The position numbers were made by a program, and so were the translations under genes. The notes under the pieces are model-generated. The model did no database searches. It had not been told where the DNA came from and was given only the letters and a program-made list of their open reading frames with translations. Of a DNA stretch of 64,000 nucleotides, positions 44,577 through 58,680 are shown piece after piece; position 1 is the stretch's first letter; every line of letters starts with the position of its first letter. The stretch is from contig NZ_CP133089.1 in the NCBI RefSeq assembly GCF_030908405.1, positions 1,550,001 to 1,614,000 of the forward strand. The letters run 5' to 3'. The DNA is from Aminobacterium sp. MB27-C1. Its GTDB lineage: Bacteria; Synergistota; Synergistia; Synergistales; Aminobacteriaceae.

Positions 44577-45881
44577 TCATTCAAAGACTGTCTGTTTCTG
44601 AATGTCATCTGTTAAGGCTAAAATAGCCTTCTTTACAATTGCTAATCTAAACTCGAATTCTTGATCTTTTTCAAGGGAAGGATTACCAAGTGGATGAGGA
44701 ATGGAACTTCCTTGAACTATCCTATTAGGACCGATAGAAGCAGCTATATCGGTTAAATTTGTAATTACAACAACAGGAATGCCAGCTTTTTCTATTTCCT
44801 TAGCCATCGTTGACCCGCAACGAGTACAGGTTCCTCAGGTAGTCACAAGAACTACAGCATCCACAGCCTGTTCTTTTAATTTTTCTACAATCTCCAATGC
44901 CATTCGTGAAGCTTCTTTTTGAGTTGTTCCCGTACCTACTGTTGCAAAATAATAATCGTTTACAGATCCAATCTTTTCTTCTTTTACTAGATATTTCAGA
45001 GCATCAAGGGGTAAGACTCTGTTAGGATCAGCATTAGCAGCTTCTGAATCATAACCTGCATGAATTGTTACAAAATCTCCAGCAGGAAGCCTATCAAGTT
45101 GAGAAACGTTATACTCTCCCCAAATAGTTGCAGAAGCAGATTGTATCCTGTCAGGATTTTCCTTAGGTACTATTCCACCAGATGTAACTAAAGCAATTCT
45201 AGCCTTAGTTATATCCTTTACAGCTGAAGCAATAGGAACAATATCTGGTTCAGGAATAGGCAACTCCGTTTGAAAAGATTCACCTTTCAACTTTTTCATT
45301 AACATGCTAAAGAGACGATCATGGGCAGGAATTGATGGTTTGGGAAAATATTGGTGACGAATGCCTCGTCCGAAATATCCCTCTTCCACAGCAGGAGCCA
45401 AGACCTCTTTACGAGCAATTTTATCTGCAAAAAGAGCCATCTTTTCCGCATCTTGTTTCATAAAGGTAGCTTTTCGACCACCTTTAAAGATGTATATATC
45501 CTTCTTGAACAATTCAACGCCAGGATTCTCTTCATTCATAGATGTAATTACTGGCACGTTAAAATGATTCGCTACAGCTTTACAGATAAGGCCACAACCA
45601 CTTCCGTATCGCCCAGCCATAAATGCCGGACCGGCAAAGAAAAAGTCAAATTCCTCTTTTTCCAACCATCCAATGATCTCTGAAAGGGCTTCTTCTGTAT
45701 GCTCATTTACATAATTGTCCCCGCAGATGATAGTATGTGTAATTTCAATTTCAGAAAGAAGAGAATTGAGTATATTAGAGCAACCAACTAACTCTGTGTG
45801 AAAAGAGGGCCGATAATCAGCCTTGTCTTCTCCCCCAATTTGTCCAAAAAACTGATTTATGTAATGGATAGCTTTCAACAT
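44577..45881 (-). CDS. grdH: Betaine/sarcosine reductase component B gamma subunit, selenocysteine-containing
   Basis: The gene spans an in-frame TGA at 44835-44837 read as selenocysteine, giving 434 residues. The N-terminal half starts LKAIHYINQFFGQIGGED, the sequence pattern of GrdB/GrdF/GrdH. At the TGA the product reads TT-U-GTCTRCGSTMAKEIEKAG, the conserved selenocysteine-x-x-Cys-x-x-Cys site of component B, and the following 75 residues (GPNRIV, SIPHPLGNPS) also match. A 15-base hairpin with 5-bp stem begins 12 bases after the TGA. Component B activates the substrate and transfers the carboxymethyl group to selenoprotein A (not in this window). The betaine version (grdH) is chosen because of the BCCT neighbour; sarcosine (grdF) remains possible. 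Confidence 0.9.
44808..44822 (-). promoter_or_regulatory. SECIS-like hairpin in grdH
   Basis: In the mRNA, stem CGUUG / CAACG with loop CGGGU begins 12 bases after the UGA at 44835-44837, within the range for bacterial selenocysteine insertion elements. The G-containing apical loop fits the SelB recognition pattern. Confidence 0.75.
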
Positions 45882-45892
45882 GTTACGCCTCC

Positions 45893-47200
45893 TTAAAACT
45901 CCGCACAGCGTTTAATAGAATCGCCTGTTTGAGCATCGCCATCAAGAAAGGCCTGCGCCTCAATAGTGAGAGAGCCATCTTCACGTACACAACCTTCCCA
46001 TCCACCACCACAACCGTCTCGAGCAATAGACTCTAAATCTCCTAAAACAACAGGCATAGAAGGCAACTCTAAAATTTCTGATACATTTCCTGTAGAAACC
46101 AGGGCATCAGCTTCTTTTCTCATAAGCACCATAGGTTGAGAAGCTCCGTCTCTTCCTGTGCATTCATTAACCGCACCTACCGTTTTTATCCCCATTTTTT
46201 CAAGCTCTGCTATAGTGAGCATAAAACCCACATCAGCATTTCCATATCCTTCTCTGGAAATGATGACTCCGTCTGCCCCTAAAGCTTGCGCTAAACGACT
46301 ATCTGTTAAAACGCACAGCTTTTTCTCGCTGAGCTCAACTGTCTCATTGCTCAGAATGACGCCAAGGAAATTGATTTCTTTACCGTGCTCTTTCATTAGT
46401 TTTTTGACTATGGAATTATTTTGAAAGGAATATGTTGACATATTGTTTGAAGCAGGTGTAAAACTGCCTCCCGCAATAGCACCGTCAAGAATTTCATTGG
46501 GATGCACATACATAGGAAGAATTCTCTTTGTATCCCAACCATAGTACTCTGCGTTATATCCTCTGTCTTCCCATTGTGCCAACACCTTCATTATATACGC
46601 AACACGAGGAAGTGACTCTACATCTGATCCGCGCTTACCAAGAGGAGGTAAATCATAAACTTCTATATCCTCCGGCTCAAGATGTCGTAGGCATTCGCCT
46701 AAATATTTTGCCAGACGCATCCCTGCTTTACGATGGGCTATATTTCTTTTTTGGAATGCTCTCTTTTCAAATTCTTCGTCAGTTTCTGCTACAAGAACCA
46801 AATTGGTCATTGAGCCGAAAATAGTATGGTTCTGAAATTCTCCTCCCATATCGATTAGACCATCCTGAAAACATCCCCAATGTTTTCCAACAGAGAGAAC
46901 GGAACACTCCTTTAACGCATGGGTACGTCCTTGTCCTACAGGTTCGAAACTATCAAAAAAACCAGGGAAAATAGAATTTCCAGTAACTTTACATCTTGGT
47001 TCAAAAGCATCCTTTACAGGCGTGATACGAACCATGTCACCCGGCTTAACGATATGTAATTCTGCTTCCGTAATGTGAGCGTCTTCAAAAACTACATCTA
47101 AGGCTTCTTTTTTATTTATAGTAAGAACGCCGTTACTAAAAGCTGTCGCATCGCCAAAAACCATATCTTTCACATGAAAATTACCTATCTCTAATCTCAT
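45893..47200 (-). CDS. grdI: Betaine/sarcosine reductase component B alpha subunit
   Basis: A 435-residue protein of the GrdE/GrdG/GrdI family, starting MRLEIGNFHVKDMVFG and continuing PGFFDSFEPVGQGRTHAL, PPLGKRGSDVESLP, HPNEILDGAIAGGSFTP and GADGVIISREGYGNADVG. The glycine-type subunit (GrdE) has an Asn-Cys near residue 242 that is cleaved to form a pyruvoyl group; here the equivalent region is GGSFTPASNN with no Cys, which fits the uncleaved betaine/sarcosine type (from memory of the family, hedged). It precedes grdH by 11 bases. A strong hairpin abuts its start codon. Confidence 0.87.
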   Translation of the reverse strand: MRLEIGNFHVKDMVFGDATAFSNGVLTINKKEALDVVFEDAHITEAELHIVKPGDMVRITPVKDAFEPRCKVTGNSIFPGFFDSFEPVGQGRTHALKECSVLSVGKHWGCFQDGLIDMGGEFQNHTIFGSMTNLVLVAETDEEFEKRAFQKRNIAHRKAGMRLAKYLGECLRHLEPEDIEVYDLPPLGKRGSDVESLPRVAYIMKVLAQWEDRGYNAEYYGWDTKRILPMYVHPNEILDGAIAGGSFTPASNNMSTYSFQNNSIVKKLMKEHGKEINFLGVILSNETVELSEKKLCVLTDSRLAQALGADGVIISREGYGNADVGFMLTIAELEKMGIKTVGAVNECTGRDGASQPMVLMRKEADALVSTGNVSEILELPSMPVVLGDLESIARDGCGGGWEGCVREDGSLTIEAQAFLDGDAQTGDSIKRCAEF

Positions 47201-54818: not shown

Positions 54819-54962
54819 TTTAAAATTACTTTTTCTACTTAAGGTCAGGATTGATCACCCTCTTCTCCGCTCTTTATTTATGATTTCATATTCCTCATTT
54901 GACATTTATCTTCTGCAATGATATAAGTGTTTAAAAATTCAGACAGGTTGGAGGCAACTTTA

Positions 54963-55049
54963 ATGTCTTTAGTTATTATATCCTCTTCCAACTGCTTTTT
55001 TGAGTATTATTACGCCGGCGAGGGACCCCTCTGGAGGGCCAGCGCTTAG
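54963..55049 (+). CDS. Attenuator leader peptide with FFEYYY
   Basis: A 28-codon ORF with a good ribosome site (TTGGAGG, eight bases upstream). Codons 12-17 are TTT TTT GAG TAT TAT TAC, giving FFEYYY, with a Trp further on. The stop at 55047-55049 lies 17 bases before a strong intrinsic terminator. This is the layout of a ribosome-stalling leader peptide that senses charged tRNA-Phe and tRNA-Tyr. No other function is apparent. Confidence 0.8.
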   Translation: MSLVIISSSNCFFEYYYAGEGPLWRASA

Positions 55050-55066
55050 GCGTTGATGGCCTTTAC

Positions 55067-55107
55067 AGGGCCGGGTTCCCGTTACTAGGGGATCCGGCCC
55101 TTTTTTT
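55067..55107 (+). terminator. Attenuator terminator of the arylacetate-CoA ligase gene
   Basis: A 14-bp hairpin (AGGGCCGG arm 55067-55074 with CCGGCCCT 55094-55101, inner pairs to 55080/55088, loop GTTACTA) followed by seven T. A competing pairing is possible between GGGACCC (55022-55028, inside the leader ORF) and GGGTTCCC (55073-55080, terminator 5' arm). Confidence 0.85.
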
Positions 55108-55149
55108 ATTCTTTGAAATTAAAAATGAACGCGAAAGGTGGAAATTAAT

Positions 55150-56397
55150 ATGTCTCAAGTTGATAAGTCAACATTGATCGGTCTTCAAAAAATAGTACGT
55201 CAAGTCTGGAATACTCACGGTCTTTATAGAAGGAAAATGGAACAATGTGGAATTTTCCCAGAGGACATTCATTCAATTGATGATTTTAAAAAGTTACCTT
55301 TTACTACAAAACAAGATCTGAGGGATAGCTACCCTCTCGGACTTCTCGCCTGTTCACAAAATCAGGTTGTTAGACTTCACGCTTCCTCTGGAACGACAGG
55401 CAAACCTACATTTGTTCCTTACACACAAAGAGATATCAATGATTGGAAAGAATGTATGGCAGAATGTTTAAAAACAGCTGGGGTTACATCTGATGATGTA
55501 TTTCAAATCATTCTTGGGTACGGCCTTTTTACTGGAGCTCTCGGATTTCATTACGGGGCAGAAAAAATTGGAGCTATGGTTATTCCATCTGGAGGAGGTT
55601 TTACAGATCGCCAACTTTTTTTAATGGAAGACGCGCAAACAACTGTTTTTACAAGCACGCCCTCATATGCTCTATACCTCGCTGAGAAAATTGTTAAGCA
55701 TAACTTGCGTTCTAGACTGAATCTTCGTCTTGCTATTCTTGGTGGAGAAGCCTGGACTGAAGATATGGGACATCAAATAGAAGAAATGCTAGGAATCACT
55801 GTTATCAATTCATATGGTCTTTCTGAAATTATGGGACCTGGGGTAGCTATGGAGTGCAATGCAAAAAATGGAATGCACTTTAACCATAATCACTTTTTTA
55901 TGGAAACAATAGATGCAGAAAGCACACAACCTTTAGCCGACGGGGAGTTTGGAGAGCTTGTTATCACGACAATTAATAAAGAAGCTTTTCCACTTATTCG
56001 TTACAGAACTCGAGACCTGACATCTCTTATTACAGAACCTTGCAGTTGTGGCCGTCAAGGAAAACGAATTGCAAGAGTTGCCGGACGTAATGACGATATG
56101 CTCATAATACGGGGTGTCAACGTTTTCCCATCCCAAGTAGAAGCTGCCCTCGCTTCTGTAAAAGGACTTTCTCTGCACTACCATCTAGAGGTACGCCATC
56201 ACAAAGATATGCCAGAACTTACGGTAGTCTGCGAATCTGCCAAACTTCTATCTGAATCTGGAAGAGAACAACTCAAGGCAAAGACATCACATCATTTAAA
56301 AGAGAAACTCGGCATTCGAATTAACGTTCAGATTGCTGACCCTGAAACTCTCGTTAGAAACGAAGGGAAAGCTTGCCGCGTAATGCATGTAGCTTAA
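55150..56397 (+). CDS. paaK: Phenylacetate/arylacetate-CoA ligase
   Basis: About 415 residues from the ATG at 55150 with AAAGGTGG upstream. AMP-binding enzyme of the PaaK family: FTTKQDLRDSYP near the start, P-loop RLHASSGTTGKPTFVPYT, YGLSEIMGPGVAMEC, LIRYRTRDLTSL and the C-terminal hinge GRNDDMLIIRGVNVFPSQ. It activates phenylacetate or a similar aryl acid with ATP and CoA. The upstream FFEYYY attenuator links its expression to aromatic amino-acid supply, pointing to reductive carboxylation of aryl acids to amino acids. No indolepyruvate oxidoreductase gene is nearby. Confidence 0.9.
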   Translation: MSQVDKSTLIGLQKIVRQVWNTHGLYRRKMEQCGIFPEDIHSIDDFKKLPFTTKQDLRDSYPLGLLACSQNQVVRLHASSGTTGKPTFVPYTQRDINDWKECMAECLKTAGVTSDDVFQIILGYGLFTGALGFHYGAEKIGAMVIPSGGGFTDRQLFLMEDAQTTVFTSTPSYALYLAEKIVKHNLRSRLNLRLAILGGEAWTEDMGHQIEEMLGITVINSYGLSEIMGPGVAMECNAKNGMHFNHNHFFMETIDAESTQPLADGEFGELVITTINKEAFPLIRYRTRDLTSLITEPCSCGRQGKRIARVAGRNDDMLIIRGVNVFPSQVEAALASVKGLSLHYHLEVRHHKDMPELTVVCESAKLLSESGREQLKAKTSHHLKEKLGIRINVQIADPETLVRNEGKACRVMHVA

Positions 56398-56436: not shown

Positions 56437-56568
56437 ATGTCTGAGAAAAAGGTACATCAGGAAAAGACAAGAATGAACGAAAACCTTTACGACCCCAAGC
56501 AAAACGAATTTGATTTTGAAGGGCTTTCTTTCGCCTACAAAGAGGCACGAAATCATGAACGAAGATAG
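56437..56568 (+). CDS. Small soluble protein behind paaK
   Basis: A 43-residue ORF, starting MSEKKVHQEKTRMNENLYD and ending RNHERR, with a strong AGGGAGGA site seven bases before its ATG, placed between paaK and its terminator. It is hydrophilic and charged, with no recognised family. The ribosome site and position make it a likely real gene; function unknown. Confidence 0.6.
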   Translation: MSEKKVHQEKTRMNENLYDPKQNEFDFEGLSFAYKEARNHERR

Positions 56569-57269: not shown

Positions 57270-57320
57270 AACTATATGAAAAATTACGCTGATTATCTCA
57301 CATGTACAAATACAATAACA

Positions 57321-57344
57321 ATGTTCTGGTGGTGGCGCAGATAG
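57321..57344 (+). CDS. trpL: Trp leader peptide MFWWWRR
   Basis: Seven codons ATG TTC TGG TGG TGG CGC AGA followed by TAG, with three consecutive Trp codons, directly before an attenuator and trpB. No good ribosome site precedes it, which is a weak point. The pattern otherwise matches classical trp leader peptides. Confidence 0.75.
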
Positions 57345-57403
57345 CGCCGCCGCAGATTTTACCTGTATTTTTAGGGCTGCGGGGCCAAACCGCAGCCCTT
57401 TTT
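57331..57403 (+). promoter_or_regulatory. trp attenuator (1:2, 2:3 and 3:4 pairings)
   Basis: Segment 1 GGTGGCGC (57331-57338) pairs with segment 2 GCGCCGCC (57344-57351); CCGCAG of segment 2 (57350-57355) pairs with CTGCGG of segment 3 (57377-57382); segment 3 GGGCTGCGG (57374-57382) pairs with segment 4 CCGCAGCCC (57390-57398) and is followed by TTTTT. Trp codons overlap segment 1, so stalling should favour 2:3 antitermination. Confidence 0.88.
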
Positions 57404-57426
57404 CTTTAATTTTAATTCAACGTAAA

Positions 57427-57501: not shown

Positions 57502-58680
57502 ATGACTACAAAGGGGAAAAAAGGATATTTTGGAGAATACGGAGGAAGTTTTGTACCTCAAGCACTACAGATCCGCCTTGATGAACTGGAAAAGGCTTAC
57601 GATGAAGCAAAAAGCGACCCCTCTTTTAAAGAGGAATTTATGAGCCTTCTCAAAGAATACGTTGGCAGGCCTTCTGCGCTTACAGAATGTAAGAATATTT
57701 CTCACTATTTTGGTGGCGGACGTCTCTTCCTTAAGCGCGAAGACTTAAACCATACCGGTGCTCATAAAATTAATAACGCCATAGGACAAGCACTCCTCGC
57801 AAAAAGAATGGGCAAAACGGAACTCATAGCTGAAACAGGTGCAGGCATGCATGGAACAGCAAGTGCCACCGTAGCAGCATTAATGGGTATGAAATGCACC
57901 GTCTACATGGGTGCTCTTGACGTTGCAAGACAGGCACCTAATGTAGCTCGAATGAAAGTTCTGGGAACAGAAGTAATTGCTGTTGAAGACGGACAAAAAG
58001 CATTAAAAGAAGCTGTCGATGCAGCACTAAAAGCCTTTGCTGAAAATCCGGAAACCTTTTACCTTTTAGGGTCCGCTGTCGGCCCCCATCCCTATCCAAC
58101 TATCGTTCGCGATTTTCAGAGTATTATTGGCAAAGAAGCTCGCTCTCAATTTATTGAACGTGAACAAAATCTGCCCGATTACGCTGTAGCTTGTGTAGGT
58201 GGAGGAAGTAACGCCATTGGCCTTTTCGCTGGTTTCCTAAACGATCGGGAAGTAAAAATCGTAGGAGTAGAACCTGCAGGGAAAGGCTTGGCTACAGGAG
58301 AACATGCAGCCACACTCTCAGCTGGACACCCCAGTGTCATTCATGGCTTTAAAAGCTATGTTCTTTCGGATGATCAGGGAGAACCCGCAGAAGTTTACTC
58401 TATCTCCGCAGGATTGGACTATCCCGGAGTAGGGCCAGAGCATGCATATTTAAAAGATAGCGGTCGTGTATCTTATACATCAGTAACAGATCAGGAAGCA
58501 ATAAATGCCTTTAAACTTCTCTCTAGAAAAGAAGGGATTATTCCTGCTCTTGAAAGTTCACATGCTCTCGCATATGCTTTTAAATTACTTCCTACTCTTT
58601 CAAAAAATCAAACTGTGCTCGTTAACCTCTCAGGCAGAGGTGATAAAGATATGGATACTATACTTCCTCTCATCGAGTGA
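57502..58680 (+). CDS. trpB: Tryptophan synthase beta chain
   Basis: A 392-residue PLP enzyme with [11 protein letters not shown] at the start, PLP lysine in [19 protein letters not shown] (K about 87), [15 protein letters not shown] phosphate loop, [16 protein letters not shown] and [10 protein letters not shown] at the end. It condenses indole with serine to tryptophan. No trpA, trpC or other trp gene is adjacent, so it may salvage external indole. It is transcribed behind a Trp-codon leader peptide and two tandem terminators. Confidence 0.95.

Follow-up and report, generated by a model that had tools for sequence, protein, structure and literature searches.

Why should a gene for a PaaK-type arylacetate:CoA ligase be preceded by a short open reading frame (ORF) rich in phenylalanine and tyrosine codons and by an intrinsic terminator? 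The gene lies in the window, the whole 64,000-nucleotide stretch of DNA analysed, from the 2.43-Mb, single-contig genome of an Aminobacterium-type member of the Synergistota. An earlier note on this DNA had proposed a Phe/Tyr-sensing attenuator and, by inference, an enzyme of amino-acid biosynthesis or salvage. The explanation favored here, and in our estimate a very probable one, is a ribosome-mediated transcription attenuator that would sense charged tRNA-Tyr and tRNA-Phe and control a salvage arylacetate:CoA ligase. The window paaK is almost certainly under attenuation, and its role is probably Tyr/Phe salvage. We infer its regulation, the direction of the reaction, and the substrate specificity from sequence. 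The features concerned are collected in Table 1.

Table 1. Features of the paaK locus and of the neighboring trpB locus, in window positions.
Feature	Coordinates	Strand	Basis or remark
Promoter-like TTGACA-17-TATAAG	54899..54927	+	Sequence reading; end lies 35 nt 5′ of leader ATG
Leader ribosome binding site TTGGAGGCA (TTGGAGG from 54948)	54948..54956	+	Sequence reading
Leader ORF MSLVIISSSNCFFEYYYAGEGPLWRASA, 28 codons plus stop (ATG at 54963, TAG at 55047-55049)	54963..55049	+	Sequence reading; kept in orthologues
Control codons FFEYYY (F12, F13, Y15, Y16, Y17)	54996..55013	+	Last ends 8 nt 5′ of region 2
Region 2, GGGACCC, antiterminator 5′ arm	55022..55028	+	Pairs with region 3
Stop-codon hairpin, upper part of antiterminator, leader TAG in its loop	55038..55063	+	Predicted, pre-terminator transcript
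Region 3, terminator 5′ arm, shared with antiterminator via GGGTTCCC (55073-55080)	55067..55080	+	
Region 4, terminator 3′ arm and T-run	55088..55107	+	Terminator scan, covariation
PaaK-type arylacetate:CoA ligase gene, 415 aa	55150..56397	+	TIGR02155 match
Small conserved 43-aa ORF 3′ of paaK, then terminator-like hairpin	56437..56568	+	Similar ORF after A-type paaK elsewhere
Trp leader (WWW) of neighboring stand-alone trpB	57276..57344	+	Sequence reading
Terminator after Trp leader	57373..57407	+	Terminator scan
Stand-alone trpB	57502..58680	+	TIGR00263, 586.9 bits; no trpA in genome (PF00290 absent)

Sequence reading and a terminator scan bear out the elements first listed in the earlier note, namely a 28-codon leader with a ribosome site, the FFEYYY run, and a 14-bp hairpin with a T-run ahead of the PaaK-type gene. 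The terminator called by the scan has 14 pairs (55067-55080 with 55088-55101), followed by a T-run at 55101-55107. The GGGACCC segment, previously suggested as part of a competing antiterminator, can indeed pair with GGGTTCCC inside the 5′ arm of the terminator, with one bulge. Overlooked at that stage was that a conserved hairpin inside the antiterminator carries the leader stop in its apical loop. The promoter-like site was not called by a consensus scan; the orthologues examined carry TTGAC(A/T)...TATAA(G/A) at the equivalent place. A T-box or other known riboswitch was rejected as an identity for the leader, the Rfam scan of the window having returned only tRNA and SECIS_4. A leader ORF with a ribosome site, tandem codons, and an intrinsic terminator can thus all be read from the window, and computation predicts an antiterminator that excludes the terminator, with the position of the ribosome deciding between the two.

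The proposed switch would operate through the position of the translating ribosome. A shortage of charged tRNA would stall the ribosome on FFEYYY. Region 2 would then be free to pair with region 3 below the stop-codon hairpin, and RNA polymerase would enter paaK. With charged tRNA in ample supply, the ribosome would pass the aromatic codons and mask region 2 and the hairpin, so that regions 3 and 4 pair and transcription terminates. Comparison across related leaders is consistent with each of these helices. The terminator recurs and covaries, with 14 double-changed cells, a count reached by none of 500 shuffles. In the close (A-type) alignment, 99.1% of region 2/region 3 cells are paired and the pairs hardly vary, making covariation there uninformative; a permutation test across subclades was therefore used instead. 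Native region 2/region 3 pairs proved stronger than permuted ones (18 subclades; 18 of 20,000 permutations as good). The stop-codon hairpin has 92.5% paired cells and one double change in the close-group alignment. Folded before region 4 has been made, the transcript is predicted to form a long hairpin that runs from region 2 to region 3 and whose apical loop contains the leader stop.

Model energies place the switch point at the aromatic codons. As long as the A site of a model ribosome has not moved beyond the last aromatic codon, the margin is 12.6 to 15.0 kcal/mol and antitermination is relatively favored; one codon further on the margin is 19.7 and then about 21, a loss of ~5 to 7 kcal/mol. 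A stalled ribosome serves antitermination better than one at the stop codon in 35 of 40 leaders, and the reverse holds in none. Nearest-neighbor energies favor the terminator in 37 of the 40, even with a stalled ribosome. A purely thermodynamic switch is rejected on these grounds, and the switch must therefore be kinetic. The termination margin is 15.3 kcal/mol for ribosome-free RNA versus 9.9 for stalled RNA, but neither a single conserved 1:2 helix nor a clear separate 1:2 (pause) hairpin was identified.

The earlier note treated Phe and Tyr as one signal, which comparison resolves into distinct Tyr, Phe, and Trp forms on different paralogues of the ligase. Where a genome has two or three leader-bearing ligases, each is preceded by a leader of its own, Tyr-, Phe-, or Trp-rich. 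In 17 of 17 same-genome pairs, which are not independent of one another, the leader of the A copy is the richer in Tyr codons and that of the B copy is Phe-rich or Phe-only. G040 and G049 also have a distant third ligase, with a WWW leader. Mapped on the ligase tree, leader codon class changes 6 times as against 22.9 in shuffled data, with none of 200 shuffles matching. Residues of the enzyme follow the same division (2Y4O chain numbering): position 151 is G in Phe types and A/S in Tyr types, and the Phe and Tyr leader classes are split by A versus T at 189 and by I/V versus S/C at 243. These three residues differ in the same direction in the separate f4 and f11 ligase pairs. Paralogues with Phe-rich and Trp-rich leaders would serve phenylacetate and indoleacetate, respectively. 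In G009, a PaaK-like gene of 35% identity is preceded by a terminator and by a leader whose codons include a Met-rich run, AKMMMCMM (L020:447-599), suggestive of Met control of an acyl-CoA ligase.

The metabolic setting gives such control a plausible purpose. Chorismate synthase, prephenate dehydratase, and TrpA (PF00290) are absent from the window's genome and from two others (G000, G001, and G002), as is prephenate dehydrogenase above the cut-off; all 14 controls were positive in each case. The window bacterium thus appears unable to make Phe/Tyr in the usual way. All three genomes encode the IorA subunit of indolepyruvate:ferredoxin oxidoreductase (IOR); the IorA match reaches 680.3 bits, above cut-off, and an IorB-like ORF adjoins it. 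Methanococcus maripaludis assimilates aryl acids into aromatic amino acids via this oxidoreductase (PMC4162585, PMC3462420), and rumen anaerobes are described as synthesizing Phe from phenylacetate (Allison 1965, cited in PMC7356843). By extension from these precedents, we infer the same ligase–IOR–transaminase route here. The ligase would activate 4-hydroxyphenylacetate and/or phenylacetate, IOR run reductively would yield the arylpyruvate, and a transaminase would convert this to Tyr/Phe. Genomes with complete shikimate genes (G045, G049) have leader-bearing paaK as well. A simple link between leader-bearing paaK and shikimate loss is rejected, both kinds of genome carrying the gene, which is therefore not simply or obligately a replacement for the shikimate route.

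An unlikely alternative accepts the attenuator and makes the ligase catabolic, either activating excreted acids or running in reverse so that arylacetyl-CoA yields ATP, with the aromatic codons reporting general starvation. Relatives of the organism ferment amino acids, and the iorAB genes stand behind a YbgC-like thioesterase ORF (L055:638-3481), an order shared with other genomes of the order, and near a gene resembling an ADP-forming acyl-CoA synthetase. This locus probably accounts for the oxidative side of aromatic amino-acid metabolism, with arylacetyl-CoA probably a catabolic product. The regulation of paaK, however, has the wrong sign for this purpose, as a catabolic gene would be switched off when its amino acid is plentiful, and general starvation would not account for codons that are specific and differ among paralogues. 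No convincing aromatic attenuator lies 5′ of iorA in the IOR loci examined. Markers of the aerobic pathway also speak against catabolism: none of 21 genomes has PaaA/C (PF05138), which 4 of 14 controls have. The window ligase itself scores 468 bits against TIGR02155, under the equivalog cut-off of 646.3, placing it outside the catabolic-PaaK equivalog as so defined; its PDB relatives, over nearly its full length, are 2y27, 2y4o, and 4r1l. The lack of shikimate end enzymes and PaaA/C and the presence of IorA support the salvage role inferred in the earlier note.

The attenuator of paaK belongs to a larger set, which lends that role further weight. A covariance model built from 16 paaK attenuators, starting 3′ of the control codons, finds matches in 102 of 188 genomes of the phylum, and 54 of 58 matches examined outside the training set have a short leader by rule. 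In many of these leaders the control codons match the downstream gene, with Leu codons at leuA, Met codons at metN and metQ, Ile/Val/Leu codons at ilvN, Ile codons at the threonine ammonia-lyase gene (ilvA), and Thr codons at that for homoserine dehydrogenase (hom). Six other copies in the window's genome (G000:C1, at 848318, 764372, 53617, 2156811, 230775, and 1537792) precede three membrane (transporter-type) genes whose control codons are aromatic, then leuA (Leu), metN (Met), and a sodium:neurotransmitter-type symporter gene (Ile). The aromatic leaders read FFYYWF, FYFYFWF, and FFFGFWY. Of the three genes behind them, named from sequence only, one belongs to the sodium:solute symporter family and two have no Pfam match; their products would be expected to have aromatic substrates. 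Because the same scaffold precedes paaK and these transporter-type genes, paaK looks like part of an aromatic scarcity regulon that would combine uptake and salvage. Another copy, at G043:C14:86720, has the leader SFFFSFFF shortly 3′ of a prephenate dehydrogenase match, in a genome with chorismate synthase, and would represent Phe attenuation of a likely shikimate-region gene.

These targets also bear on the idea that the ligase makes arylacetyl-CoA for some other use (a lipid starter or a conjugate, for example), with Tyr/Phe starvation serving as a cue for another reason. A reason to entertain it is the small 43-aa ORF that is kept 3′ of A-type paaK in other genera, with a core like DFEGLPxAYxEA and no significant Pfam match. 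No pathway of that kind lies beside paaK, however, and the scaffold otherwise precedes genes for the synthesis and probable uptake of amino acids, which makes this use improbable, more so than a catabolic one.

Recurrence of the arrangement bears on whether it is more than coincidence. Forty-nine leaders, collected partly by eye, were catalogued before PaaK genes of the phylum. A leader precedes every ligase of at least ~48% identity to that of the window for which enough upstream sequence was examined; on the negative side, most ligases of 42-47% identity, adjoining iorAB or elsewhere, have none. One fixed detection rule is passed by 29 of the 49 leaders, by 1 of 75 non-Synergistota paaK, and by no shuffles. 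The control set came from named organisms, nearly all of which lay outside the phylum. As the comparison with related genomes suggested in the earlier note would require, the Tyr/Phe codons are kept while the rest of the peptide varies freely, apart from a tail such as GVGPPxxADA. The gap from the last aromatic codon to region 2 is 8 nt in 39 of 40 leaders measured. Leader, terminator, and spacing are, by their recurrence in other genera, more than chance. A fortuitous short ORF before an ordinary terminator of the upstream region, without regulation, is therefore very improbable, for all that short ORFs are common in any sequence and that folding of the leader region gives only a moderate z of -2.7 against shuffles for the window alone, given the conserved spacing and codons and the near-absence of the pattern outside the phylum and in shuffles.

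Each single element of the window attenuator is of a known kind. Classical attenuators (trp, his, and pheA of enterics; trp of Corynebacterium and Streptomyces; PMC1262725) likewise combine a leader ORF with tandem codons, a terminator, and an exclusive antiterminator, and all control genes for the same amino acid as the codons. The Synergistota scaffold differs from them in controlling a CoA ligase, in being reused throughout the phylum with varied codons and a conserved C-terminal tail (GxGPPxxADA, CGSPPGxxGA), and in placing the leader stop in the antiterminator apical loop, with no clear separate 1:2 hairpin in the Synergistota leaders. With the M. maripaludis and rumen route, the route proposed here shares arylacetate activation, reductive carboxylation by IOR, and transamination; here, in contrast, it would be bacterial, with a PaaK-type ligase under attenuation and separate Tyr/Phe/Trp versions. 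The aerobic phenylacetate pathway has a PaaK (2Y27, 2Y4O; PMC8388817) of the same enzyme family, whereas the window ligase falls under the TIGR02155 cut-off in a genome lacking PaaA/C. Stav et al. 2019 (PMC6429828) also proposed Phe/Tyr upstream ORFs as regulators, in a survey that took in the synergistete Thermovirga lienii; those candidates lie near shikimate genes, and the accessible portion of that paper reports neither paaK nor a shared Synergistetes scaffold. In the literature searched, neither an attenuator of paaK nor, for Synergistetes, any amino-acid leader peptide was found. As far as that search shows, attenuation of arylacetate:CoA ligases, paralogue-specific codons, and a phylum-wide single scaffold are new.

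A broader proposal, somewhat more probable than its contrary, is that the Synergistota have a single modular attenuator scaffold in common, which was duplicated and given codons for many different amino acids, so that its leader codons can serve as enzyme annotation. Three PaaK specificities, for 4-hydroxyphenylacetate, phenylacetate, and indoleacetate, would then serve Tyr, Phe, and Trp by arylacetate salvage and, with stand-alone TrpB, would form the sole aromatic route in shikimate-less species. For PaaK-type ligases of anaerobes that lack the known catabolic pathway, the proposal offers a function open to testing, the salvage of arylacetates into aromatic amino acids, and suggests how Phe, Tyr, and Trp are supplied in species lacking shikimate end enzymes. 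The phylum-wide scaffold has no Rfam match in the window, and its control codons can help to assign amino-acid genes and transporters. Whether leader codons predict the ligase substrate is directly testable, three paralogue types being present within single genomes.

Two further loci lie in the window. The stand-alone trpB downstream of paaK, with its Trp leader and terminator, looks like indole salvage under attenuation, and WWW leaders also precede related solo trpB in several Synergistota genomes. The SECIS_4 match lies on the minus strand at 44797-44834, near an ORF (45893-47200) resembling a glycine/betaine reductase component, and marks a selenoprotein locus.
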